Shown piece after piece: positions 5,093-21,955 of a DNA stretch of 21,955 nt. A model generated the notes under the pieces. That model did not search any database. It saw only the letters and a program-made list of their open reading frames with translations, and had not been told where the DNA came from. Where the stretch lies: the NCBI GenBank assembly GCA_019307645.1, contig JAFDJF010000007.1, forward strand, positions 1-21,955, given 5' to 3'. The DNA is from Deltaproteobacteria bacterium (GTDB taxonomy: Bacteria; Desulfobacterota; DSM-4660; Desulfatiglandales; Desulfatiglandaceae). The position numbers and the translations under genes are program-made. Numbering within the stretch: the stretch's first letter is position 1; every line of letters starts with the position of its first letter.

Positions 5093-5193
5093 ATTTCGTG
5101 TTTCCTGCCTGTACGAAAACCTCATCCGTTTCAGCCTTAAGGTATGAAAATGACCTCTCGGATGCAAGCAGAAACTCTATTTGGGTTGTAGAA

Positions 5194-5213
5194 TTCACGG
5201 TTCAGGGTTTCAG
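5194..5213. repeat. Short heptamer-like repeat block (GGTTCA type)
   Basis: TTCACGGTTCAGGGTTTCAG contains the GGTTCA/TGAACC unit seen again near 7000, 7150, 18640 and 21930. It covers the end of the 92-aa minus-strand gene and supplies its TGA stop, so the gene's C-terminus may have been set by this repeat. Confidence 0.55.
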
Positions 5214-6995: not shown

Positions 6996-7161
6996 CTGGT
7001 TCAAGGGTTCACGGTTCAGGGGTTTGTGGACCAACCGTGAACCCCTGGCCCAGACCTGGCATAACAAGATGCGGTGATGGGAAGCCACGTAATCATAAGC
7101 AGTGAAAGCAGTTTCATGTTCGCATTCCGTCGCGCCAGGGCAGGCGCTGAACCCTGAACCT
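6996..7161. repeat. GGTTCA-type repeat region with a 12-bp hairpin
   Basis: The 430-bp gap between the antiterminator and gspG has no gene. GGGTTCACGGTT (7005-7016) and AACCGTGAACCC (7033-7044) are perfect inverted repeats, built from the same GGTTCA/TGAACC units found elsewhere. A further pair of units (CTGAACCCTGAACCTAAC) is at 7148-7165. No U-tract follows the hairpin, so termination is not evident. Confidence 0.6.
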
Positions 7162-7230
7162 AACAACCTGAGCAGTTACAATCAGTGTCTCACTCTATTC
7201 GACATCATGTGATCGAAGGGGCGGAGCTAT

Positions 7231-7360
7231 GTTTACCCTAACGTTGCATAAATCCTGTCGACAAAAACCGTTTCACTCGCGCTATAGTGCATGACTACAC
7301 ACACATTTCACGCACTCTAACACGTTTTTGTTCGAAGTTTTATGCAACGTTAGGGTTTAT
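7231..7360. mobile_element. MITE-like element A upstream of gspG
   Basis: ACCCTAACGTTGCATAAA (7235-7252) and its exact reverse complement (7339-7356) bracket 86 bp. The similarity extends inward through CGACAAAAAC near 7259-7268 and GTTTTTGTTCG near 7324-7334. No ORF lies inside. Its right end is about 20 bp from the gspG start, so it must carry or have replaced the gspG promoter. The same terminal motif recurs at 8036-8051 in element B. Confidence 0.7.
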
Positions 7361-7379
7361 TCAATATCTGGAGACTCCC

Positions 7380-7817
7380 ATGAATGCACGTCACGGTAAA
7401 AAACGCTTTGCAGGAACAGACGGATTTTCTCTCATAGAACTTCTGGTCGTCATCATTATTCTCGGTCTTCTTTCAGCGCTCGTAGCGCCCAAATTTTTTG
7501 GAAAGGTGGACAAAGCCAAGACGAAGACGTGCAAGGCTCAGATTGAACTTCTGGGATCGGCATTGGACAGCTTCCGTCTTGACAATGGAAAATACCCCAC
7601 AACTAATGAGGGATTGAATGCCCTGAGAGAAAAACCGGACGAACTGAAAGACTGGGACGGACCGTATCTGCCCAAACCTGTCCCTGCGGACCCATGGGAA
7701 AGGGCGTATATCTACACATGCCCTGGCGAACACAGTGATTATGATCTTTACAGCTATGGCAGAGACGGTGTGGCGGGTGGAGAAAAAAGCGACCGGGATG
7801 TTGTCAGCTGGGAGTAA
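7380..7817 (+). CDS. gspG: Type II secretion major pseudopilin GspG
   Basis: The main subunit of the T2SS pseudopilus, processed at the inner membrane. The 145-residue preprotein has a class III leader cut between Gly15 and Phe16 (DGFSLIELLVV), with Glu20 at the +5 position and a hydrophobic helix to about residue 36. The globular part has KTCKAQIELLGSALDSFRLDNGKYPTTNEGL and the calcium-site region YSYGRDGVAGGEKSDRDVVSWE, both diagnostic of GspG rather than a type IV pilin. The start ATG 7380 has TGGAGA 6 nt upstream; a longer frame to 7287 would run into element A. It stands apart from the rest of the T2SS genes, between elements A and B. Confidence 0.96.
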   Translation: MNARHGKKRFAGTDGFSLIELLVVIIILGLLSALVAPKFFGKVDKAKTKTCKAQIELLGSALDSFRLDNGKYPTTNEGLNALREKPDELKDWDGPYLPKPVPADPWERAYIYTCPGEHSDYDLYSYGRDGVAGGEKSDRDVVSWE

Positions 7818-8053
7818 ACCCTTTAGTTGCATAAATAACATGGCTAACTGGTTTAAAATACTATAATAATAGACGCATTCATCTTTTTGTATGCTCTGCT
7901 GGAATTCACCCCAAGTGACATCCTGAAAGCAGTCAAAAGCAGCCATGTTATTTACCCGATGGGAAAGTCCCGCCAGGCGGGATAAAGTACTATAGCTTCA
8001 CCCTTTCCGCCTTGGACCTGGGGCATCCTCGACTTTTGCAACGTTAGGGTAAA
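7815..8053. mobile_element. MITE-like element B between gspG and gspE
   Basis: The 253-bp gap is not coding. The left end, TAAACCCTTTAGTTGCATAA (7815-7834), is a degenerate copy of the element A terminus. The right end, TTTTGCAACGTTAGGGTAAA (8034-8053), matches it in reverse. Nested inside are a perfect 13-bp inverted repeat, AAATAACATGGCT (7833-7845) and AGCCATGTTATTT (7941-7953), and a 15-bp palindrome TCCCGCC-A-GGCGGGA (7968-7982). The gspG stop lies in the left end. The element splits an otherwise tight operon. Confidence 0.65.
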
Positions 8054-8070
8054 ATCAAAAAGTAAATCAC

Positions 8071-9708
8071 ATGAGTATCCTGACCCTTCAAATGATGAAC
8101 AGCCTGAAGAAGATTTTTCCGCGAAGACCAACGCAGCCTGAGGGCGGTATCATTTCCCCGGTCCAGCCATCAGACCTCGTAGCGGACGTGCCGGAAATCG
8201 ATGAAGACAAGTTCCCTCAATCCCCGCCATCCCTCAAGGTGCTGCCTCTGCCTTTCATGAAAAGGTTCCGCTTTGTGCCTTTGGAGGATTCCGGGGAATT
8301 TGTTATCGTTGCAATGGCCAATCCACTGGACTTTAACACGCGTGAAGCAATCCTGAATGCGTACGGCAAACCCGTAAAAGTAGTCAGAGCATCTGAAGAG
8401 ACCATATCCCAGTTTATTTACCGCTGGTATGAAGCTGAAGCGGATATGACTTCAGAGAAAGGAGAAGGCGCTGAAAACGTCATCCTGACTGCGGAAGACC
8501 GGCTGTGGGACGACCCGGAACATCTGAAAGACATGGCCTCTGAGGCTCCTGTCATCCGGCTGGTGAATCATATAATCAATAACGCCCTTGAATCAGGGGC
8601 CTCCGATATTCACATCGAACCTCGAAAGCAACACGTTCAGGTACGGTACCGGATAGACGGAATCCTCCATGATCGCGAGACACTTGCCAGGAACCTGCAG
8701 GCTGCCATAACTTCCAGGATAAAGCTTATGGCAAAGATGGATATTGCTGAAATGCGACTTCCTCAGGACGGAAAAATCAAGTTCATGACAGGGAGGAAAG
8801 AGGTGGACATCCGTGTGTCCTGCCTTCCCACCAGCATTGGCGAAGGCCTGGTACTGAGACTTCTCCACAAAGAAGATGTTCAGCTGGCCCTTGAAAACCT
8901 GGGTTTTCCCTCTTCGATCCTGGATCAGTTCAAGGACATCATTTCTCTGCCATACGGAATGCTTCTTGTCACAGGTCCCACCGGATCCGGAAAGACCACA
9001 ACGCTTTATGCAGCGCTGAATGCCATAAACACTCCGGAAAAAAAGATTGTGACCGTGGAAGATCCGGTAGAATATCAGCTCGAGGGGATCAACCAGATTC
9101 AGGTGCAGCCTAACATCGGACTCACATTTGCAACAAGTCTCAGGTCCTTCCTCCGTCATGATCCTGATATAATGCTGGTGGGTGAAATAAGGGACATGGA
9201 AACAGCGGATATCGCCATGCAGGCAGCTCTCACCGGGCACATGGTCTTTTCCACACTCCACACGAATGATGCTGCAGGGACCATAATCCGACTGGAAGAG
9301 ATGGGTGTGGAAAGATTCATGGTAACATCATGTGTTGCCGCCGTGCTTGCTCAGCGGCTCGTGAGAAAAGTCTGCCCCAATTGTCAGGAAGATGTCTCCA
9401 TTTCAGATGAAAAAAGGTCTCTGATGGCACAAGAGATGGATTTGTCTCCCGCCCTGATGGTCCCCAGTTTCCGGAAAGGCATGGGGTGCACAGAATGCGG
9501 AGGGACCGGGTATCGTGGGCGATTGGGCATTTTTGAACTGCTTCCACTGAATGATTCAATCCAGCAGGGGATCATAGAAGGCGCCAGCCGGGCCGAGATA
9601 AACCGCGAAGCACTTTCCGAGGGCATGATATCTTTGAAGATGGATGGACTTGACAAGGTCCGCCAGGGAATCACGACCTACGAAGAAGTTCTGAGGGTAA
9701 CGCGCTGA
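8071..9708 (+). CDS. gspE: Type II secretion ATPase GspE
   Basis: The cytoplasmic hexameric ATPase that powers pseudopilus assembly. The 545-residue protein has an N-terminal GspE domain (about 45-120), then the core with Walker A GPTGSGKT (302-309), the Asp box VTVEDPVEYQLEGINQ (327-342), Walker B IMLVGEIRD (367-375) and a His box around HMVFSTLHTND (390-400). A tetra-Cys zinc site is present (C435, C438, C473, C476), typical of GspE. The first ATG is 8071; another lies at 8092. Neither has a good ribosome-binding site, perhaps because element B ends only 17 bp upstream. The stop overlaps the gspF start (TGATG). Confidence 0.97.
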   Translation: MSILTLQMMNSLKKIFPRRPTQPEGGIISPVQPSDLVADVPEIDEDKFPQSPPSLKVLPLPFMKRFRFVPLEDSGEFVIVAMANPLDFNTREAILNAYGKPVKVVRASEETISQFIYRWYEAEADMTSEKGEGAENVILTAEDRLWDDPEHLKDMASEAPVIRLVNHIINNALESGASDIHIEPRKQHVQVRYRIDGILHDRETLARNLQAAITSRIKLMAKMDIAEMRLPQDGKIKFMTGRKEVDIRVSCLPTSIGEGLVLRLLHKEDVQLALENLGFPSSILDQFKDIISLPYGMLLVTGPTGSGKTTTLYAALNAINTPEKKIVTVEDPVEYQLEGINQIQVQPNIGLTFATSLRSFLRHDPDIMLVGEIRDMETADIAMQAALTGHMVFSTLHTNDAAGTIIRLEEMGVERFMVTSCVAAVLAQRLVRKVCPNCQEDVSISDEKRSLMAQEMDLSPALMVPSFRKGMGCTECGGTGYRGRLGIFELLPLNDSIQQGIIEGASRAEINREALSEGMISLKMDGLDKVRQGITTYEEVLRVTR

Positions 9709-10916
9709 TGCAACGTTTCTCATATGAAGCTGTTGATCCTCAGGGTCGCAAAATTGTGGATTCGGGGGAGGCCTGGGACAGGGAGTCTCTTTTAATAAAC
9801 CTGCATTCCAGGGGTATGGTCCTGGTCAGGTGGCTGGATGATGAGCGCTCTGGTTCACGTTTGTTTAAGCGGTCAACACAGACGCTGGGTGCCGGAGAGC
9901 TCCTGCGGGTTACCAAAAACCTGTCACATCTCTTGAAATCCGGCGTGCCCATGGACAGGACCCTGACCATCATAGCCGACTCCGCAAGGCAGGAATCCAT
10001 TAAGACAACGGTAACATCTCTCAAAGAATCCATACAGGGGGGCAGCACTCTTTCCGAGGCCATGGCCAAGAGATCTGATGAGTTTAACAATCTTTATGTG
10101 AACATGGTCAGAGTCGGTGAAATGGGCGGCATACTGCCTCAGGTAATGGAAAACCTGGCACAATTCATGGAACGTTCCCGGGAAATCAGGAAATTCATCA
10201 TCTCTTCCTCTGTCTATCCTGCTATCCTTCTCTTTGTAAGCATTGTATCGGTTCTTGTAATAATGGGATTCGTTGTCCCCCGCTTTGCAGGCATATTCAG
10301 CGATCTCGGACAGGAAATTCCTTTTTCCACAGAGATCCTTATCCGGATGAGCAACTTTTTGAGACAATGGGGCTTGTGGACACTGCTGTTTGTCGCCCTT
10401 TGTTCCGTATGGTTGTGGCGCATGGCACAGACCCCGGGAGGCAAAGATCGCCTCGACAGCCTGATTATCCGATCCCCGTTTTTCGGTGCACTGGTAACAG
10501 ACATTCAGGTCAGTCGTTTTGCAAGGACTCTCGGGACGCTTGTTGTGAGCGGGGTACCTTTGCTCAAGGCCCTGTCTATTGCCCAGGATGTTGTAGAAAA
10601 CAATGTGGTAAAAGCAGCTGTAGATCACATCTATCACCAGGTCAAGGAAGGAAAGAGAATAAGTGCACTGATGAAGGATCAGGACACATTTCCTGCCATG
10701 GCCGTGCAGATGGTTTCACTTGGAGAAGAGAGCGGCAAACTCGGCGAAATGCTGGTCCTTGTGGCCGAAGAACTGGACAACAGTATCCAGGCAAAAATAA
10801 AGGCCTGTCTTGCACTTCTTGAACCCGCAACCATCCTCTTTATGGGACTTATCATCGGTGGGATCGTCATCTCTATGCTTTCAGCTATTTTTGGGATCAA
10901 TGAGATTCAGTTCTAA
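9708..10916 (+). CDS. gspF: Type II secretion inner-membrane platform protein GspF
   Basis: The polytopic platform that couples the GspE ATPase to the pseudopilus. The 402-residue protein is full length. It has two T2SSF repeats (about 66-189 and 268-391), each with a VRVGEMGG/VSLGEESG motif (134-141 and 336-343). Three membrane segments lie at about 167-190, 221-239 and 372-395. The N-terminus FSYEAVDPQGRKI is typical. The ATG overlaps the gspE stop by one base, and the end overlaps gspH by 17 bp, so it is translationally coupled on both sides. Confidence 0.97.
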   Translation: MQRFSYEAVDPQGRKIVDSGEAWDRESLLINLHSRGMVLVRWLDDERSGSRLFKRSTQTLGAGELLRVTKNLSHLLKSGVPMDRTLTIIADSARQESIKTTVTSLKESIQGGSTLSEAMAKRSDEFNNLYVNMVRVGEMGGILPQVMENLAQFMERSREIRKFIISSSVYPAILLFVSIVSVLVIMGFVVPRFAGIFSDLGQEIPFSTEILIRMSNFLRQWGLWTLLFVALCSVWLWRMAQTPGGKDRLDSLIIRSPFFGALVTDIQVSRFARTLGTLVVSGVPLLKALSIAQDVVENNVVKAAVDHIYHQVKEGKRISALMKDQDTFPAMAVQMVSLGEESGKLGEMLVLVAEELDNSIQAKIKACLALLEPATILFMGLIIGGIVISMLSAIFGINEIQF

Positions 10917-11352
10917 AACCGGATTCACGCTGGTAGAAATACTGGTTGTGATGGTCCTGCTGGCCATCGTCGGCGCTCTTGTCTTTGTCAGCGCAGGAAA
11001 AACCATGGCAGGCAACCAGAACAAGGCCTTTGCCCGGGAGATGATATCCCTCTGCAAAAAGGCCCGACGGATGGCCGTGAATGACGGCGTGCCAACAGCC
11101 TTTAATATTTCCTCCAGCCAGAGGCGTTGCTGGGTCGGCGACAGCACAAAATCACTTGAAATCCCCGAGCAGATGCTCATTGAAGGGGAAGGAATCACTC
11201 AATTGAACGAAGATGTGTATACTATCGGGTTCTATCCGGACGGAAGTTCGGGTGGGGGAACGCTCACACTTTCCGTATTCGGTCAAACCGTTTATGCCTT
11301 CAGAATAGACATCCTCACAGGAATGCTCATCCGGATAGAGGAGGATGCCTGA
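10900..11352 (+). CDS. gspH: Type II secretion minor pseudopilin GspH
   Basis: A 150-residue prepilin-like protein with leader MRFSSKTG, cleavage between Gly8 and Phe9, Glu13 at +5 and the helix FTLVEILVVMVLLAIVGALV. The rest (KARRMAVNDGVPTAFNISS, then FYPDGSSGGGTLTL) has the beta-rich GspH fold pattern. The start ATG 10900 is the one directly before the leader and lies inside the gspF end, with GGGA 5 nt upstream. In T2SS, GspH is a minor pseudopilin below the GspIJK tip complex; position after gspF supports this. Confidence 0.92.
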   Translation: MRFSSKTGFTLVEILVVMVLLAIVGALVFVSAGKTMAGNQNKAFAREMISLCKKARRMAVNDGVPTAFNISSSQRRCWVGDSTKSLEIPEQMLIEGEGITQLNEDVYTIGFYPDGSSGGGTLTLSVFGQTVYAFRIDILTGMLIRIEEDA

Positions 11353-11791
11353 ACGGATGGACCACTGCTGTAAACCATCCCAATGCCGCAGGAGATATAG
11401 CTCAAAGAGAGCAGGATTTACGCTCCTTGAAGTATTGGTCGCGCTTATGGTCGCAGGAATTTCTCTGGGAGCTGTTTTTCAGGCATTTTCCCAATCCAAG
11501 AGGATATCCTGGAAAGCGGATGAAAGACTGGAGAGCGCCCGCATCGCACAGAACATCCTTGCAGATTCCGCATTGATAGGTGCCGCACTCAGAGACGAAG
11601 GAAAGGAAGGGGTTGTGGAGGGAGAAACCGGGTGGAAATACACTATCTCTGTAAAACCCCTTGAATATCGTCCTGAAAATGGGGAAAATCTTCTCGAAAT
11701 CCCGGCTATGCTGGATATACGTCTGTGCCTGGCCCATGACAGTGGTCAGAAAGAGAAGTCCTTTTGCCTGAACCGTTGGTATCGCCGCTGA
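11345..11791 (+). CDS. gspI: Type II secretion minor pseudopilin GspI
   Basis: A 148-residue pseudopilin with an unusually long, Cys- and Arg-rich leader. Cleavage is expected between Gly24 and Phe25 (RAGFTLLEVLVALMVAG), with Glu29 at +5. The post-helix part SKRISWKADERLESARIAQNILAD is characteristic of GspI, which nucleates the tip complex with GspJ and GspK. Two starts are possible: ATG 11345, overlapping gspH by 8 bp, or ATG 11357, better spaced from the GAGGAGG at 11338-11344. The end overlaps gspJ by 28 bp. Confidence 0.92.
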   Translation: MPERMDHCCKPSQCRRRYSSKRAGFTLLEVLVALMVAGISLGAVFQAFSQSKRISWKADERLESARIAQNILADSALIGAALRDEGKEGVVEGETGWKYTISVKPLEYRPENGENLLEIPAMLDIRLCLAHDSGQKEKSFCLNRWYRR

Positions 11792-12453
11792 AGACAAAAA
11801 GAGGCAATCAAAGCGGTTTTACGCTACTTGAGCTCCTGGTAGCCATGGTTCTTGTCTCCATGGTAACTCTGGTGGTGGCCATTGCCCTGAGGCTCTCTAT
11901 TGAATCCTGGGAAGGTGGGGTCGAAGAAGGAGAGGACATTCAACTGTGGGTGGCCATCCCCTCTCTCATGACAAAACAGCTTGATTCCCTGACGAGAATT
12001 GACCCTTTTGAAAAAACAGGCGGGAAACAGCAGCTGCCATTTTGTGGCCAAAAACACGCTCTTTCATTTTTCACCGCCTATGCCCCGCAAGGGTCCCCTC
12101 TGCAGGGGCTTTTAAAAATAACCTATCTTTTTAAAGAAGAAGAGAAAACTCTTTATCTTTTTGAACAGGTCATTACAAGGGAAGAAGATCTTAATGATGA
12201 ATACGACCCCCTGTCCGACAAGTGGGGAAACTCTTTTAAGCCAATGAGCCAGGTGCCCGGAATTTCGGGCTTTGATCTGACATACACAGGCCAGAATATA
12301 CAAGACCCGCAAGAGGCGGACGACTGGAAGGAAATCTGGAAGTGCACATCAAAATCCCTGCCAACAGGGCTGGGGTTAAAGCTCAGAATTGGAACAGGCC
12401 AAAATGCGCATGCACGCAGCCTGTATTTCCGACTGGGAGGGATTGGGCCATAG
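11764..12453 (+). CDS. gspJ: Type II secretion minor pseudopilin GspJ
   Basis: A 229-residue protein with a class III leader cut between Gly18 and Phe19 (QSGFTLLELLVAMVL), Glu23 at +5 and a large beta-rich C-terminal part, the size expected for GspJ. No ATG precedes the leader; the start is inferred as TTG 11764, with a purine-rich AGAGAAG about 6 nt upstream. TTG 11776 is an alternative. Family features include GFDLTYTG and a final LGLKLRI strand. It overlaps gspI and abuts gspK (TAG then ATG). Confidence 0.9.
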   Translation: MPEPLVSPLKTKRGNQSGFTLLELLVAMVLVSMVTLVVAIALRLSIESWEGGVEEGEDIQLWVAIPSLMTKQLDSLTRIDPFEKTGGKQQLPFCGQKHALSFFTAYAPQGSPLQGLLKITYLFKEEEKTLYLFEQVITREEDLNDEYDPLSDKWGNSFKPMSQVPGISGFDLTYTGQNIQDPQEADDWKEIWKCTSKSLPTGLGLKLRIGTGQNAHARSLYFRLGGIGP

Positions 12454-13284
12454 ATGGTTATTGCTGGTAGCATAAAATCCAATAACGGAAGTGTCCTGAT
12501 CATTGTCCTGTGGTCTCTGGTCCTTATCGGTTTCCTGGCTGGGGAATATCTGGATCATAATCGCGGGAAGGCATGTCTGGCGGTTAATGCCTGGGATTCG
12601 CTCAAACAGAAAGAAGCCGTCGACTCGGTGTTGAATCTCTTTGCAGCCGATTCCTGGCCAATCCCGGGCGATAATAACAGATTCGGAACCTGGACCGCTT
12701 TTTCTCCCGGGGGATTTGATCTGTGGGTGAAGGTTGACAGCGAATCAAACAGAATAAACATCAACACAGCCTCGGACGGCCAGATGAGAAACAAGATGCT
12801 GGAACTGCTGGGTGAAGACCACTTTGACAAATCCAACCAGTTAACAGATGCCATTCTCGACTGGCGGGATACAGACACCCTGCTAAGGACAAACGGGGCT
12901 GAGGCAGACTTTTACGATTCCCGGGGTCTTCCCTATAAGCCTGCAAATGGGCCGTTCAAGGTGCTTACAGAGCTGCTCCTTGTAAAAGGGGTGACCTCGG
13001 ATGTTTTCTGGGGAGACCCGATAACCGGCCTTTTGACCGAAGAAGAGGAAGAGATAGAACCACTTCATTTTTCCCTTTTGGATGAATTCACCATCTATTC
13101 CAGGAACGTCAAAAGGGTAAACATTGTGGTTCCGGGTAAACAAAACGGTTATACGCTCATAACAGCTTTCCTGGAAAAAGAAAAAGGCAGGTGGAAAGTT
13201 CTGCAGCTTTACAGGACTATGCGGGTATCAGCCGGCAGGGAATCGCAATTCCTCAATCAAACGGAGCCCGGCGTTGAATCTTAA
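12454..13284 (+). CDS. gspK: Type II secretion minor pseudopilin GspK
   Basis: The large tip pseudopilin. The 276-residue protein has leader MVIAGSIKSNNG, cut between Gly12 and Ser13, and lacks Glu at +5 (Ile17). That absence is the known hallmark of GspK. The helix-hairpin-helix-like region has ININTASDGQM (101-111) and the signature DWRDTD (136-141), followed by FYDSRGLPYKPANGPFKVL. The start ATG directly follows the gspJ stop. The end overlaps gspL by 11 bp. Confidence 0.94.
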   Translation: MVIAGSIKSNNGSVLIIVLWSLVLIGFLAGEYLDHNRGKACLAVNAWDSLKQKEAVDSVLNLFAADSWPIPGDNNRFGTWTAFSPGGFDLWVKVDSESNRININTASDGQMRNKMLELLGEDHFDKSNQLTDAILDWRDTDTLLRTNGAEADFYDSRGLPYKPANGPFKVLTELLLVKGVTSDVFWGDPITGLLTEEEEEIEPLHFSLLDEFTIYSRNVKRVNIVVPGKQNGYTLITAFLEKEKGRWKVLQLYRTMRVSAGRESQFLNQTEPGVES

Positions 13285-13885
13285 TAACCTCTCTCTGCTG
13301 ACAAAAGATTATTTTTTCGGTAACCCCGGGTCAACTTTGACCGGACGGGATATAATCGGGTTACATCTTGAAAAAGAAAAACTCCATTATGTCTGTCTGA
13401 CAAGGGCTCGTGGAGGGTGGATCCCGGCGCGTCCGGGCCCGGCCCTCGACCCGCTCGGCAGCGTTGAGGAACCGGCGCCCTGGTCTCTCAAGCAGTTCCT
13501 GGAATGGTTGACCGTATTTCCTCTGGTGGAAGGCGCCTCGGCCCCCAGAAAGCGAGCCGTCTATCTGACCCTCCCAAGAAACTGCTTCTCTGCCAGAGAC
13601 CTTCAGCTTCCTCCCATGCCGATGGAGGATGCCCTGGTATCAGTGGAAAACAGTCTGCCCGTCTGCTGTCATCTTCCAATTGAAGAAATATACTACGATA
13701 TTTGGTATCAGTGGAAAACAGTCTGCCCGTCTGCTGTCATCTTCCAATTGAAGAAATATACTACGATATTCACCTCTGCCGTACAATCCAGGGAAATATT
13801 AATGCGCTTATTGTCTACGCTGCCCGCAGGGACATGGATGAATACCTGGACATTTTCCGGGAAACAGGGCACATGGATTCACTGA
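13274..13885 (+). CDS. gspL: GspL, N-terminal part (frame lost in a tandem duplication)
   Basis: GspL is the inner-membrane assembly protein that binds GspE by its actin-like cytoplasmic domain and pairs with GspM. This frame begins at TTG 13274 (no ATG; overlaps gspK) and reads the start of the cytoplasmic domain (TGRDIIGLHLEKEKLHYVCL, then RAVYLTLPRNCFSARDLQLPP) up to EEIYYDI at about residue 143. Then a perfect 68-bp duplication shifts the frame, and the remaining roughly 60 residues are unrelated to GspL. Removing one repeat copy joins this part to the next frame as one 473-residue GspL, the usual family size. As sequenced, it would yield a truncated protein. Confidence 0.85.
   Translation: MNLNNLSLLTKDYFFGNPGSTLTGRDIIGLHLEKEKLHYVCLTRARGGWIPARPGPALDPLGSVEEPAPWSLKQFLEWLTVFPLVEGASAPRKRAVYLTLPRNCFSARDLQLPPMPMEDALVSVENSLPVCCHLPIEEIYYDIWYQWKTVCPSAVIFQLKKYTTIFTSAVQSREILMRLLSTLPAGTWMNTWTFSGKQGTWIH
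13635..13770. repeat. Perfect 68-bp tandem duplication inside gspL
   Basis: Bases 13635-13702 and 13703-13770 are identical, with no spacer. The unit starts TGGTATCAGTGGAAAACAGT and ends ACTACGATATT. Since 68 is not a multiple of 3, the duplication breaks gspL; taking out one copy restores 474 codons including the stop. The junction creates a TTG (13702) that could restart the correct frame. It may be a real, readily reversible duplication or an assembly fault. Confidence 0.98.
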
Positions 13886-14763
13886 GAGGGATTTTCCCCG
13901 TATCGTTCGGGATAGGCGCCTGGTTGAACATACAGCGGTATCCCATGCCTATCGGTCTGATACTCCCCCAGGACAGCGCCTATGAACTGGCCGTATTTCA
14001 GAAGAAAGGCTGCCTGTTTTCCGGGACGTGGCCCCTGTCTGAAGGAATCGAGGAGGGAGATCTCCTTGCGGCCGCAGCAAAATCAAAATTCCAGGGCCTG
14101 GGTGAAAACATATTCTATCTCCACAACGGCGGGACACCGGCCTTACCTTCACCCTCACCGAACCGCCTGGACCAGCTGCCATTGGTTGCTGAAAATCCGG
14201 GCATGGCCGCTGTTGCACCGGCCATATCCGGTCAGCAGGAAATATCAATTGACGGGACCCCGCCGCGTCTGAAAACATTTCAGACCGTAAGGCTCGCAGT
14301 CCCACTTGTTCTTATTCTTATCCTGACTATTTTCCTGATGACATGGAATGTGAAGTGGGGTATTTCCAGTCATCAGGAGGACATCAATATCCTGAAAGCT
14401 GAGATTCATGAGTTAAAAAAGAAACTCGAGCCAATAGAACAAAACCGTACGACATTCAGGGAAGCCGGCAGAATCCTTGAGGACACCCGTGAATTCATGA
14501 AAACAAAACCCAGACTTTTCAGCCATATCAATGAAGTGGCCCGCTGCCTGCCCGGGGACACGTGGTTCTCTCATTTTGATTTTAAAAGCACGGTGATGAC
14601 CCTCAAGGGGGAGAGTCCGGATGCATTGAAGGTCATAGAGGCGCTCCGCACATCCAGCATGTTTGGACAGGTAACCCTGAAGGGGTCTGTCAACAGGAAC
14701 AAAACCGGGGCAGAAAGATTCAGCCTGACCATCAAGTTGAAGAACAATGAAGCCGATAAATAA
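13702..14763 (+). CDS. gspL: GspL, remainder: rest of actin-like domain, membrane span, periplasmic domain
   Basis: This is the correct GspL frame after the duplication, 353 residues if started at the TTG made by the junction. It repeats VSVENSLPVCCHLP...EEIYYDI and then carries on through the cytoplasmic domain (INALIVYAARRDMDEYLDIF, GLILPQDSAYELAVF). A Pro/Ala-rich linker follows, then one membrane span (VRLAVPLVLILILTIFLMTW), a coiled coil (DINILKAEIHELKKKLEPIEQ) and a small PilN/GspL-type periplasmic ferredoxin-like domain ending LTIKLKNNEADK. Separate translation from the TTG is possible but not shown. The end overlaps gspM by 17 bp. Confidence 0.87.
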   Translation: MVSVENSLPVCCHLPIEEIYYDIHLCRTIQGNINALIVYAARRDMDEYLDIFRETGHMDSLRGIFPVSFGIGAWLNIQRYPMPIGLILPQDSAYELAVFQKKGCLFSGTWPLSEGIEEGDLLAAAAKSKFQGLGENIFYLHNGGTPALPSPSPNRLDQLPLVAENPGMAAVAPAISGQQEISIDGTPPRLKTFQTVRLAVPLVLILILTIFLMTWNVKWGISSHQEDINILKAEIHELKKKLEPIEQNRTTFREAGRILEDTREFMKTKPRLFSHINEVARCLPGDTWFSHFDFKSTVMTLKGESPDALKVIEALRTSSMFGQVTLKGSVNRNKTGAERFSLTIKLKNNEADK

Positions 14764-15310
14764 TAAGATGCGTCTATGGATTCTGGGTGGTATACTGATC
14801 ATCATATCTGTTCTGGTATGGCGGGTACACGTCTGGTCACCGTTACAGGATCAAAAGGATGAATTAGAAGTTGAATTATCCCTGGTCTCACAGGAGCGTG
14901 ATCGTCTGGCACAAAGGCTGGAAAGGCTTTCCGATACAGAACAGAACCACCGGAAAATGGAAGAGACCCTGGCTCAGTTCGCGGGTTTAGTGGTCCAGGG
15001 GGACAGCCCGGAAGAAATATCCGCCCACACACAGCTATGGGTGCAGGAATTTCTGGAGAACCAGGGGCTTTTGCTTAAGGCTTATAAAGGGCTTTCTCCA
15101 TCCAAGTGGCGGGATTATCCCTTAAGTCGCGTACAATTTCATCTGGGCGCCACCACTCAAGGGCTTTCCGACCTTCTCGAGAATCTCGAAAATATGAAAA
15201 AAGCCGTCCGGATTGAAAAACTTGGTGTGAACTACAGGCGCAGCAGGGAAAACGACCTTCTCGTCTCCTTAAACCTCAGCACACTCTTTGTGGAAGGACT
15301 TAAGGAATGA
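14747..15310 (+). CDS. gspM: Type II secretion assembly protein GspM (PilO-like)
   Basis: A 187-residue inner-membrane protein with a short cytoplasmic N-terminus, one membrane span (about 9-27), a coiled coil (about 36-70, rich in Glu, Arg and Leu) and a small periplasmic ferredoxin-like domain (RVQFHLGATTQGLSDLLENLENM, then VRIEKLGVNYR and LLVSLNLSTLF). This is the GspM/PilO architecture, which pairs with GspL. The start ATG 14747 lies within the gspL end; ATG 14768 is an alternative. The stop overlaps the gspD start (ATGA). Confidence 0.9.
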   Translation: MKPINNKMRLWILGGILIIISVLVWRVHVWSPLQDQKDELEVELSLVSQERDRLAQRLERLSDTEQNHRKMEETLAQFAGLVVQGDSPEEISAHTQLWVQEFLENQGLLLKAYKGLSPSKWRDYPLSRVQFHLGATTQGLSDLLENLENMKKAVRIEKLGVNYRRSRENDLLVSLNLSTLFVEGLKE

Positions 15311-17484
15311 TAGATCAGAAAAGGGTACGACCGATTATGAGATTCATTGATTTTAGAGTCTGTGTGTGGATTGTACCGGTGATGATGATTTTTTTTGTTT
15401 CATTCTCAGTCTCAGGCTGCGCTGCAGGCAAAGGGGGCAATGAGATTGCAGACGTCATCGAAGAGCCCGTTGACTCATCTGTCAAAACCGAGAGTACCCG
15501 AAAAAATATTCCCCATGCCCAAACCGCTATCGAAGAGAGTACAGATGGGGATTTGATTCAGAAAAATCAGAACACGCCCTCCACGAACCGGATACGACCC
15601 ATAAAGCGGCCGGCTGAATTAAAGCCACTCCTGGCCGTCATGCCAGGGAGGACTTCCGGTCAGAAAAAAAATGTGGGCCCTAGCCCAAAAATACACGTGG
15701 AGCTGGCCTTTGACAATGCAGATCTTCACGAAGTCCTGGACGTTACACTATATGAGCTTTTCAGGGTCAACTACATGGTGGACCCCAGTATTAAGGCCAA
15801 GGTCACCTTCCACCTGTCCGGTGATTTCACCAAAACACAGTTCATTAATGTCCTGAACAATGTGCTACAGTTAAACGGTCTTGCCATTGTGAAGGGTCCC
15901 GGGGATATCTTTAAAGTGGTCCGCCGCGCATCAAGCGCCGGTTCCGGCAATGCGCCACTGGCTGCTGAGGCAGAAGCCGGTCAAGCCGGGGACGTCACAC
16001 GCATGCTCCGACTCAGATATATCGCGGCTGCAACCGGCGCCAGAAACATCCAGCCGTTTCTTTCAAAAAATGCTGTTGTGGTAGCGGATGCAGTCACAAA
16101 TTCTCTGGTTATCACGGATACCCGGGATAACCTGAACAAGGCCGCGAGCATCCTTGGCATGATGGACGTGGAATACTTTGCAGATATTTCCTGGCGAGTC
16201 TTTCCCATAAAGGAATCAGATGCTCCTGAGATGGCCAGGGATCTGGAACGGATACTTAAAACCGGTGGTCTTTATAACAGGCCGGGGGCTGATAAGGGCG
16301 GTTTCGAGATTATCCCCATAAAAACTATGAATGCGCTCCTGGTAGTCTCCCGATGGCCATCCATGCTCAAGCTTATCGATGACTGGATCAACGCGATGGA
16401 CCATGCCGATGATTCCGGAACAAACGTCTTTGTATACTTTGTGGAGAACGGTACGGCTGTGGAGCTGGCAGATATTTTGAACCAGCTCTATGGCGGCACA
16501 TCCACGGGGACATCAAAAAAAGTGGCCATTGTTAGGCCATCAGCCAAGGCAGGCCTTTCCGGTGAACTTTCAGGTGAGGTCGAAATCATACCGGATGAAA
16601 CCAACAATGCCATTGTGTTCAAGGCAAGCGGCAGAGATTACAGGATCATCAAGGAAGTTCTGAAAAAGTTGGACATCGTGCCCAGGCAGGTGCTCATCAA
16701 CGTGGTGATCGCCGAGATTACACTGGACGGTTTACTCGAGTATGGCGTGCAATGGTTTTTGAAAGACCGCGCTCAATCGGGCTACAAACTCCAGGGGAGA
16801 CTTGATGACGGAATAGAACTGCCAATCGATACGGTCCTGGGCGGGGGTGTGAAAGGTCTAACGCTTGCCCTGTACGATTCAGACGATCTTTTAAGAGGTC
16901 TTATTATGGCCCTTGAAACGGAGGGAGAGGTGAATATTCTTTCTTCTCCAAACATCCTGGCGGTGGATAACAAAGAAGCTATCATTGAAGTCGGGGAGCA
17001 GGTCCCCATCCCCACAGGCGAGACCATTACCGAAGGCGGGACGACGATCACGAGCATTCAATACCGGGACACGGGGGTCCTTCTCAGGGTCACGCCTCAT
17101 ATTAACTCGAGTGGGCTCATCAAAATAGAACTGGTCCAGGAGGTGAGCGAAACAGGGACCAAAGACCCGGAATTAAACGCTTATTCTTTCCTCAATCGAA
17201 GAGCGGAGACGTCCCTTGTCATCGACAACGGCCAAACCATTATCCTTGGCGGGCTAATGAGGTCGAAACTGGATACGAGCGGTTCAGGGATCCCATTTCT
17301 AAAAAGCATTCCGCTCCTGGGTTATCTCTTTGGGGGGACATCAAAAAAGATTGCCAAGACTGAATTGATTTTTCTTATCACGCCCCGGATTATAAATACG
17401 CGGGCAGAGGCAGACGCCATTACCAGAGAATTTTCCAAACGGGTGGACAGTATGAAAAAACTAATAGAGGAGAAAAGTTTTTAG
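15307..17484 (+). CDS. gspD: Type II secretion secretin GspD, with lipobox
   Basis: The outer-membrane secretin channel. Domains of the 725-residue protein: N-terminal hydrophobic signal (18-37) ending in VSG-Cys38, a lipoprotein signal peptidase II site; a linker of about 85 residues; N0 (about 128-205, KIHVELAFDNADLHEVLDV); N1 (about 231-290); N2 (about 296-365); N3 (about 373-457); and the secretin core (about 460-696). The core has VGEQVPIPTGE (562-572), LRVTPHINSSGLIKIELVQEVS and DNGQTIILGGLMRSK near the end. No C-terminal pilotin-binding S-domain is obvious after residue 700. The lipid anchor suggests a self-piloting liposecretin, as known for HxcQ. The start overlaps the gspM stop by 4 bp. 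An element follows 7 bp after the stop. Confidence 0.96.
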   Translation: MIDQKRVRPIMRFIDFRVCVWIVPVMMIFFVSFSVSGCAAGKGGNEIADVIEEPVDSSVKTESTRKNIPHAQTAIEESTDGDLIQKNQNTPSTNRIRPIKRPAELKPLLAVMPGRTSGQKKNVGPSPKIHVELAFDNADLHEVLDVTLYELFRVNYMVDPSIKAKVTFHLSGDFTKTQFINVLNNVLQLNGLAIVKGPGDIFKVVRRASSAGSGNAPLAAEAEAGQAGDVTRMLRLRYIAAATGARNIQPFLSKNAVVVADAVTNSLVITDTRDNLNKAASILGMMDVEYFADISWRVFPIKESDAPEMARDLERILKTGGLYNRPGADKGGFEIIPIKTMNALLVVSRWPSMLKLIDDWINAMDHADDSGTNVFVYFVENGTAVELADILNQLYGGTSTGTSKKVAIVRPSAKAGLSGELSGEVEIIPDETNNAIVFKASGRDYRIIKEVLKKLDIVPRQVLINVVIAEITLDGLLEYGVQWFLKDRAQSGYKLQGRLDDGIELPIDTVLGGGVKGLTLALYDSDDLLRGLIMALETEGEVNILSSPNILAVDNKEAIIEVGEQVPIPTGETITEGGTTITSIQYRDTGVLLRVTPHINSSGLIKIELVQEVSETGTKDPELNAYSFLNRRAETSLVIDNGQTIILGGLMRSKLDTSGSGIPFLKSIPLLGYLFGGTSKKIAKTELIFLITPRIINTRAEADAITREFSKRVDSMKKLIEEKSF

Positions 17485-17491
17485 GCAATAC

Positions 17492-17808
17492 TGATGAACC
17501 CGTAAAAAGCGGGGCTGTGGGGGTCTCTTTTTAGAAGTCCGCATCACAAATGACGTCTGCGATTATACCCGCCAAGCCTGGATTTTAAGCAACGTCAAGG
17601 CAGCAAAGGCCAACTTGGAGCGAAAGACGCGCTTTGTCTTCCCCTAAAAACAAATTGCGTATCAAGCTGCCGTCATTTTGGAATGACTCACAAATATGCG
17701 GGCTTCTAAAAAGAGACCCCTACGGCCCCGCCCGATCCGGAGTTATTGAGAAGTTACGCTTCTGGACTCCGGTTTTCACCGGACTGACAACTTTTTACGG
17801 GACCATCA
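17492..17808. mobile_element. MITE-like element C between gspD and the gspC-like gene
   Basis: The outer inverted ends are TGATGAACCCGTAAAAAG (17492-17509) and CTTTTTACGGGACCATCA (17791-17808), with 2 mismatches. Inside are 36-bp inverted arms at 17509-17544 and 17696-17731 with 3 mismatches, containing GGGGTCTCTTTTTAGAAG and CTTCTAAAAAGAGACCCC. A smaller CCGG hairpin lies near 17766-17786. There is no ORF of note. The outer end resembles a desulfobacterial intergenic repeat I recall (TGATGAACTCGTAAAAAG). It fills almost the entire 361-bp gap. Confidence 0.75.
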
Positions 17809-17845
17809 ATTTTGAACCTTATAACCTGAGTTGTTACGGAAAAAC

Positions 17846-18577
17846 ATGAAAAAGATCATTCTACTTTCTCTCATTCTCTGTCTTTCCTGCCCGTTTTGGG
17901 CACTGGGAGCATCGTCCCCTATGGTTGAACGGCATATTTTTTCGCCTGAGCCTGATGGGAAGGGGTCCCATAAATCACCCATGGCGCTGAAACTGGAAAA
18001 AGAACTCATATTCACCGGAGTGATCATATCGTCTCAGGGAAAATGGGCAATTATCCGTGAAAAGGGGAAACGGACGGACGAAGATGTCAGCGGACTCCGC
18101 AAGGAGGGAGATGAAATAAAGGGAATGGTTATCAAAAAAATCGCCGGCAATTTCTTGATACTGACAGGGGAAGGAAAGGATGTGCGTCTGAACCTTTATC
18201 ATGAAGGAAAGCCGCGGCCGGCCATGCCCGCAGGGTCAGGATCGCCTTTTGTTTCAGCTGAAAAAATTCTAGAGGAGCCGCCTGCCCCTTCCTCAAAATC
18301 CAGGACCACCTCAACCCGGGTCAAATCAAGAAGTCCGCATGCCCGGGCCTCAAAGCCGCCAACCAGGGCGCCTAAACAGAAAAGCAGCGCATCCCCTCCG
18401 AAAACTAATCCATTTCAGCAGGAAACGCCTCCGACCCCCTTTCAGCAAGGCGCTCAAAACCCTTTTCTAGAGCAACATCCCTCCCCATTTCCCCAGGAAA
18501 CTCCCCCTAATCCATTTCTACAACAAGCCCCCCCCAACCCTTACCTTGAACAACCCCCAAATGCAGATGTAGAATGA
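17846..18577 (+). CDS. GspC-like exported protein with Pro-rich tail
   Basis: A 243-residue protein with a cleavable-looking signal peptide (MKKIILLSLILCLSCPFWALG). It then has RHIFSPEP and a GspC homology-region-like beta domain (LEKELIFTGVIISSQGKWAI..., EGDEIKGMVIKKIAGNFLIL, DVRLNL, about 50-117). In T2SS this domain contacts the N0 domain of GspD. A basic Ser/Thr/Pro linker follows (about 140-185). The tail then repeats NPFxQ/PPxPF-type units (NPFQQETPPTPFQQ, NPFLEQ, PFPQETPPNPFLQQ, NPYLEQPP). Unlike classic GspC there is no N-terminal cytoplasmic part and no PDZ domain. ATG 17846 is chosen over an upstream TTG at 17831. The function is inferred from the domain and from its place at the end of the T2SS cluster. 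Confidence 0.72.
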   Translation: MKKIILLSLILCLSCPFWALGASSPMVERHIFSPEPDGKGSHKSPMALKLEKELIFTGVIISSQGKWAIIREKGKRTDEDVSGLRKEGDEIKGMVIKKIAGNFLILTGEGKDVRLNLYHEGKPRPAMPAGSGSPFVSAEKILEEPPAPSSKSRTTSTRVKSRSPHARASKPPTRAPKQKSSASPPKTNPFQQETPPTPFQQGAQNPFLEQHPSPFPQETPPNPFLQQAPPNPYLEQPPNADVE

Positions 18578-18621: not shown

Positions 18622-18661
18622 GAACTTTGAACCTCTGAACCGTGAACCCCTGAACCCGGGG
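18622..18661. repeat. GAACC heptamer-like tandem repeat
   Basis: Four to five degenerate 7-8 bp units (GAACTTT, GAACCTCT, GAACCGT, GAACCCCT, GAACCCGG). They lie in the 185-bp spacer between the gspC-like gene and rfbD. Same family as the blocks near 5200, 7000, 7150 and 21930. Confidence 0.7.
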
Positions 18662-21915: not shown

Positions 21916-21919
21916 GATA

Positions 21920-21955
21920 GGGGTTCAGGGGTTCAGGGGTTCAGGGGTTCAGGGG
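21920..21955. repeat. GGGGTTCA 8-bp tandem repeat, running off the window
   Basis: Four perfect units of GGGGTTCA plus GGGG, cut by the window edge. The unit is the reverse complement of the TGAACCCC-type units seen upstream of rfbD. Copy number is likely unstable and hard to assemble. Confidence 0.9.

Follow-up and report, generated by a model that had tools for sequence, protein, structure and literature searches.

The gspL gene of a type II secretion operon is interrupted by a perfect 68-bp tandem duplication that breaks its reading frame. The duplication occupies positions 13635–13770 of the window, the 21,955-base stretch of DNA analysed here, and consists of two abutting copies on the forward strand. 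Copy 1 (13635–13702) is readable in the gspL frame, and copy 2 (13703–13770) is in frame with the downstream part of gspL only. Tandem Repeats Finder reports a period of 68, 2.0 copies, 100% match and no indels, a separate repeat search returns the identical pair, and direct comparison finds the copies string-identical, all as described in the sequence-only reading that preceded this work. The gene is split into two frames because 68 is not divisible by 3 (68 mod 3 = 2). A perfect abutting match of this length is far above chance expectation. Since the copies are perfect and are absent from the relatives examined, the duplication is, judged from its sequence, either private among those relatives and recent or a fault of assembly; the same two options had been proposed at the outset. 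We favour a recent local duplication that leaves a one-off null allele of gspL in an otherwise complete-looking operon, and we give this account about an even chance of being right.

The upstream piece of gspL runs on the forward strand from a TTG start at 13274 to a TGA stop at 13883–13885. Of its 203 codons, the first 143 match GspL and the last 60 are out of frame. The downstream piece (13702–14763, forward strand) is open for 353 codons from the TTG formed at the repeat junction and carries a PilN domain (PF05137). Its frame is closed on the 5′ side by a TGA at 13681, within copy 1, which leaves 13702 as its earliest point of entry. P0003, the record for the window itself in the protein collection, is a 296-residue part of the downstream piece (13873–14763, forward strand), and its ATG start at 13873 overlaps the stop of the upstream piece by 13 bp.

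Both pieces were compared with P0001, a near-identical and continuous 473-residue protein from a Deltaproteobacteria MAG. The upstream piece corresponds to residues 1–143, with 140/143 identical, and the downstream piece to residues 121–473, with 349/353 identical, the start codon being one of the four differences. Residues 121–143 of P0001 are encoded twice in the window, and no GspL residue is missing. These matches upheld, without any deletion being made, the earlier claim that removal of one copy gives a GspL of 473 residues. At this level of identity no decay is visible on either side of the break. A chimeric join of two organisms was considered and rejected because both pieces match this one relative protein at 98–99%.

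The surrounding operon lies on the forward strand. gspL sits between gspK (12454–13284; Pfam T2SSK_1st above cut-off, NCBIfam gspK below cut-off) and a gspM-like gene (14747–15310; NF040576 below its curated cut-off, no Pfam match). The frames for gspG, gspE, gspF, gspH, gspI and gspJ fall within 7287–12453. gspG scores above its NCBIfam cut-off; for gspE and gspF the gsp models rank first with scores below the curated cut-offs; and gspH, gspI and gspJ were assigned only from position and pseudopilin-like N-termini. The gspM-like gene is followed by the gspD secretin (15307–17484; TIGR02517 above cut-off), beyond which lies a gspC-like gene whose name rests on position and look, with no Pfam or NCBIfam match. 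The ten other gsp-like frames are comparable in length to their counterparts at the same positions in the gene order of two relatives introduced below, L001 and L002, within the reach of those loci; these neighbours were compared by length and order. Decay of other gsp genes, which had been named in advance as evidence against a reversible state, was looked for on this basis and none was seen, so that operon decay was set aside. Within the window, no gsp gene other than gspL is seen to be broken. A plasmid search with GspE gave, among the matches listed (at least 5,000 records), only sequences below 60% identity.

GspL appears to be a fair name for the interrupted gene, from its operon position plus structural matches. 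PilN is the only Pfam domain above cut-off in the two pieces, where it falls in the downstream one, and it is present in 18/18 members of alignment A2. A sequence profile searched against solved structures gave no GspL match and three weak matches unrelated to secretion. The structure modelled for P0001 has low confidence (mean pLDDT 53.7, pTM 0.34). Foldseek with this model returned eight matches at E ≤ 0.001, all to P. aeruginosa PilM chains (best E 4e-5), followed by one FtsA chain and the cytoplasmic domains of V. vulnificus GspL, PulL and V. cholerae EpsL (E 0.003–0.02). The periplasmic domains of EpsL and PulL were also matched (E 0.02–0.08), and a GspE-GspL complex was among the matches. 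For the cytoplasmic part, TM-scores on this low-confidence model were low, at 0.2–0.25 by query. The gene thus resembles GspL, EpsL and PulL in being flanked by gspK and a gspM-like gene and in the Foldseek matches to their domains, but differs from them in being split and in having PilN as its sole above-cut-off Pfam domain. In the low-confidence model, the duplicated residues 121–143 map to a helix-strand segment of the cytoplasmic portion.

We compared the duplication site with that of related genes at both the protein and DNA levels. A search of the protein collection returned 29 proteins, and a second profile round returned 30, the sole addition being P0030, which is outside alignment A1. 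In A1, 24 of the 29 rows cross residues 101–163, with no gap or insertion. The rows P0002, P0003 (the window's own), P0004, P0010 and P0027 start inside the gene, and their coverage of the site is incomplete. P0002 and P0010 start at a Met just upstream of the repeat site, P0004 starts at the same internal ATG as P0003, and P0027 likewise begins inside the gene; P0002, P0010 and P0004 are on contigs of 4193, 1694 and 1205 bases. The internal starts of P0002, P0004, P0010 and P0027 may reflect contig edges or independent breaks. A search for N-terminal gspL pieces in the protein collection gave 47 candidates, none at E ≤ 0.001.

A genome scan gave 15 pattern matches and yielded two relatives with DNA at this locus, L001 (Desulfobacteraceae bacterium UBA5623) and L002 (uncultured Desulfobacterium sp.), with approximately 60% and 57% protein identity, respectively. 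Their gspL frames are open for 473 and 471 codons. Alignment of the window with each shows one clean 68-column gap at the site, and L002 has an additional 6-base gap elsewhere. Among 99 genomes near L001 and L002, 29 have some match to P0001, and identity exceeds 50% in L001 and L002 only. The intact one-copy gene is seen in P0001 at the protein level and in L001 and L002 at the DNA level. The sequence-only reading had suggested looking for repeats at the same place in related gspL genes. There is no tandem repeat at the site in either of the two relatives with DNA and no insertion in any of the 24 proteins aligned across it.

A scan for exact tandem repeats provides a rough background for how often such duplications occur. 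The scan covered units of 20–500 bp, excluding units themselves built of a shorter repeat, in 71 records (946,352 bases, including the window; L003 and L004 were dropped as repeats of L001 and L002). Four exact tandem arrays were found: the 68-bp array in gspL, two in L035, and one with an 87-bp unit in L059. The non-window DNA (about 0.92 Mb) comes from other genomes, which makes the background only a rough one, and holds a single exact tandem duplication besides a CRISPR-like array, that duplication being in frame. This is the L059 repeat (12200–12394), with 2.24 copies within a 661-codon ORF. The L035 arrays (12693–12845 and 13555–13832) have 61- and 122-bp units and one palindromic repeat common to both; judged by eye, they resemble a single CRISPR array in which spacers are duplicated.

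On the favoured account, a 68-bp stretch inside gspL would have been duplicated recently in this lineage, shifting the frame, and the duplication would be present in the living genome. Because the GspE ATPase is held at the inner membrane by the platform protein GspL, the two-copy allele is expected to be secretion-null, and the cell would lack a working GspL and hence a working secretion machine. One copy could then be lost by slipped replication or recombination, as with other perfect abutting repeats. The allele would be an ordinary unstable mutation rather than an evolved switch. The main competing explanation is an assembly artefact in which two pieces of one genome sharing a 68-bp overlap were abutted with the overlap unmerged, the living gspL being intact; we regard this as a serious possibility, if a little short of evenly probable. 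Perfect identity, exactly 2.0 copies and zero microhomology at the duplication ends are what an unmerged overlap gives, although the last is not diagnostic: 57% of 20,000 random 68-bp units drawn from gspL likewise have no end microhomology. An artefact also agrees with the match of both gspL sides to one relative protein, with the absence of any other visibly broken gsp gene, and with the rarity of exact tandem duplications in the DNA of other genomes, at one per about 0.92 Mb outside the CRISPR-like array. The window, whose 21,955 bases equal the length given for the contig of P0003, is probably the whole contig and terminates in a short GGTTCAGG array, which suits a fragmented assembly. Against an artefact, 68 is not known to correspond to a common assembler overlap length, and the usual tendency of assemblers is to merge repeats, not to create them.

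The duplication had also been read as a reversible off state that lets secretion flip between off and on in a population. As an evolved, maintained phase-variable switch this is unlikely, indeed most improbable in our estimate, and flipping in a population is unproven. The rest of the operon looks complete, as a switch would need, and perfect abutting repeats do lose copies at measurable rates, by analogy with the cases of pneumococcus, tolA and M. tuberculosis promoter repeats given below. Nevertheless, the site carries no repeat in 2/2 relatives with DNA or in 24/24 aligned proteins, so that the hypermutable tract kept at one site that is the hallmark of an evolved contingency locus is not seen among them. 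Loss of a copy moreover has no return path. The off state would then need a fresh duplication with no end microhomology to guide it, and reversion alone does not make a two-way switch. The window is also a single sequence from one assembly, and neither a one-copy allele of this population nor a mixed population was seen. The claim of flipping is therefore unsupported, and we dropped the switch as the main reading because the relatives examined keep no repeat at the site. A related scenario, in which a genuine two-copy allele and a one-copy allele occur side by side within one natural population, with secretion-off cells acting as public-goods cheaters able to revert, has in our view only a very slight chance of being correct.

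A third alternative is that GspL is split but working: translation would yield both pieces, the second started at the junction TTG or through reinitiation at ATG 13873, and the two would assemble together. From the TTG at 13702 on, the pieces jointly miss no residue, and the 13-bp overlap between the upstream stop (13883–13885) and ATG 13873 has a geometry that fits termination-reinitiation. A start at ATG 13873, however, would drop residues 144–177, and the low-confidence model places the break within a helix-strand region (residues 117–147) of the cytoplasmic part. No candidate start stands out in anti-Shine-Dalgarno energy: the values are −1.0 for the junction TTG, −2.8 for GTG 13711, −4.8 for ATG 13834 and −4.6 for ATG 13873, compared with a background mean of −3.6 (507 start-like triplets, 7001–18500) and −5.8 for the native gspL start. 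A weak start signal is no obstacle in itself, as the native starts of gspE (−0.4), gspM (−1.0) and the gspC-like gene (−1.5), as assumed here, share the weak range of the junction TTG. The energy test has little power because the gspE and gspM starts score no better than that TTG. Of the earlier suggestion that the junction TTG might permit split expression, the existence of the TTG stands; positive evidence for its use did not emerge, its energy being weaker than the mean in this low-power test. Overall, a working split protein seems very improbable.

Returning to the favoured account of a recent null allele, loss of one 68-bp copy is plausible by analogy with other genes. In pneumococcal capsule genes, a spontaneous sequence duplication within the ORF is reported to silence the gene reversibly, the cases given being cap3A, cap8E and tts (Waite 2001, 2003; via PMC4022640, PMC4243769 and PMC2995930). 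The window likewise has an exact, frame-breaking tandem duplication within a single ORF, as in these genes, where the duplication inactivates the gene and is described as reversible. The cited sections report both states and reversion for the pneumococcal capsule, whereas the window offers a single sequence of a secretion gene from one assembly. Reported rates come from other genes, none from the window sequence. Reversion of an insertion of ≤9 bp in pneumococcus is expected at no more than ~10^-5 (PMC4022640), tandem-repeat contraction in E. coli tolA occurs at 6.9×10^-5 and at 15% of that rate without RecA (PMC3477136), and copy number of M. tuberculosis promoter tandem repeats varies in isogenic populations at 10^-2 to 10^-3 (PMC12817950). 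The tolA repeats resemble the present case in being intragenic and tandem, and they contract at measurable frequency. They differ in forming a multi-copy array of 15-bp units across natural strains whose loss, in the part of that study cited, is mostly RecA-dependent; the window has a single frame-breaking duplication that is absent from the relatives examined (PMC3477136). Copy loss at a measurable rate, as first claimed, is thus plausible from other genes, and its supposed RecA-independence does not sit well with tolA.

The confirmed observation is the perfect, frame-breaking 68-bp duplication, and its meaning depends on its origin. If real, it would be a further natural case in which a short tandem duplication inactivates a gene, the organism here being uncultured and Deltaproteobacterium-like, and it would serve as a reminder that alleles of this kind, which may be revertible, ought not to be taken for decay. 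If it is an artefact, it would be a typical trap, in which a join that duplicates sequence exactly makes a core gene look frameshifted when it is not. In neither case does the duplication alone show regulation of secretion.

The window holds several other repeats. Short GGTTCAGGGG-type repeats occur on both strands at 5184–5210, 6998–7024, 18628–18657 and 21919–21955, and the last bases of the window lie within an array of this type, which is probably the reason that the contig stops. A TGCAACGTTAGGGT motif is present three times around gspG, once inverted (7232–7254, 7340–7364 and 8031–8058). Between gspD and the gspC-like gene, a 36-nt inverted repeat (17509–17544 and 17696–17731, 92% complementary) surrounds 151 nt, with an additional 10-bp complementary pair flanking it by eye. 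This unit has no Rfam match at the gathering cut-off and looks like a small non-autonomous mobile element.
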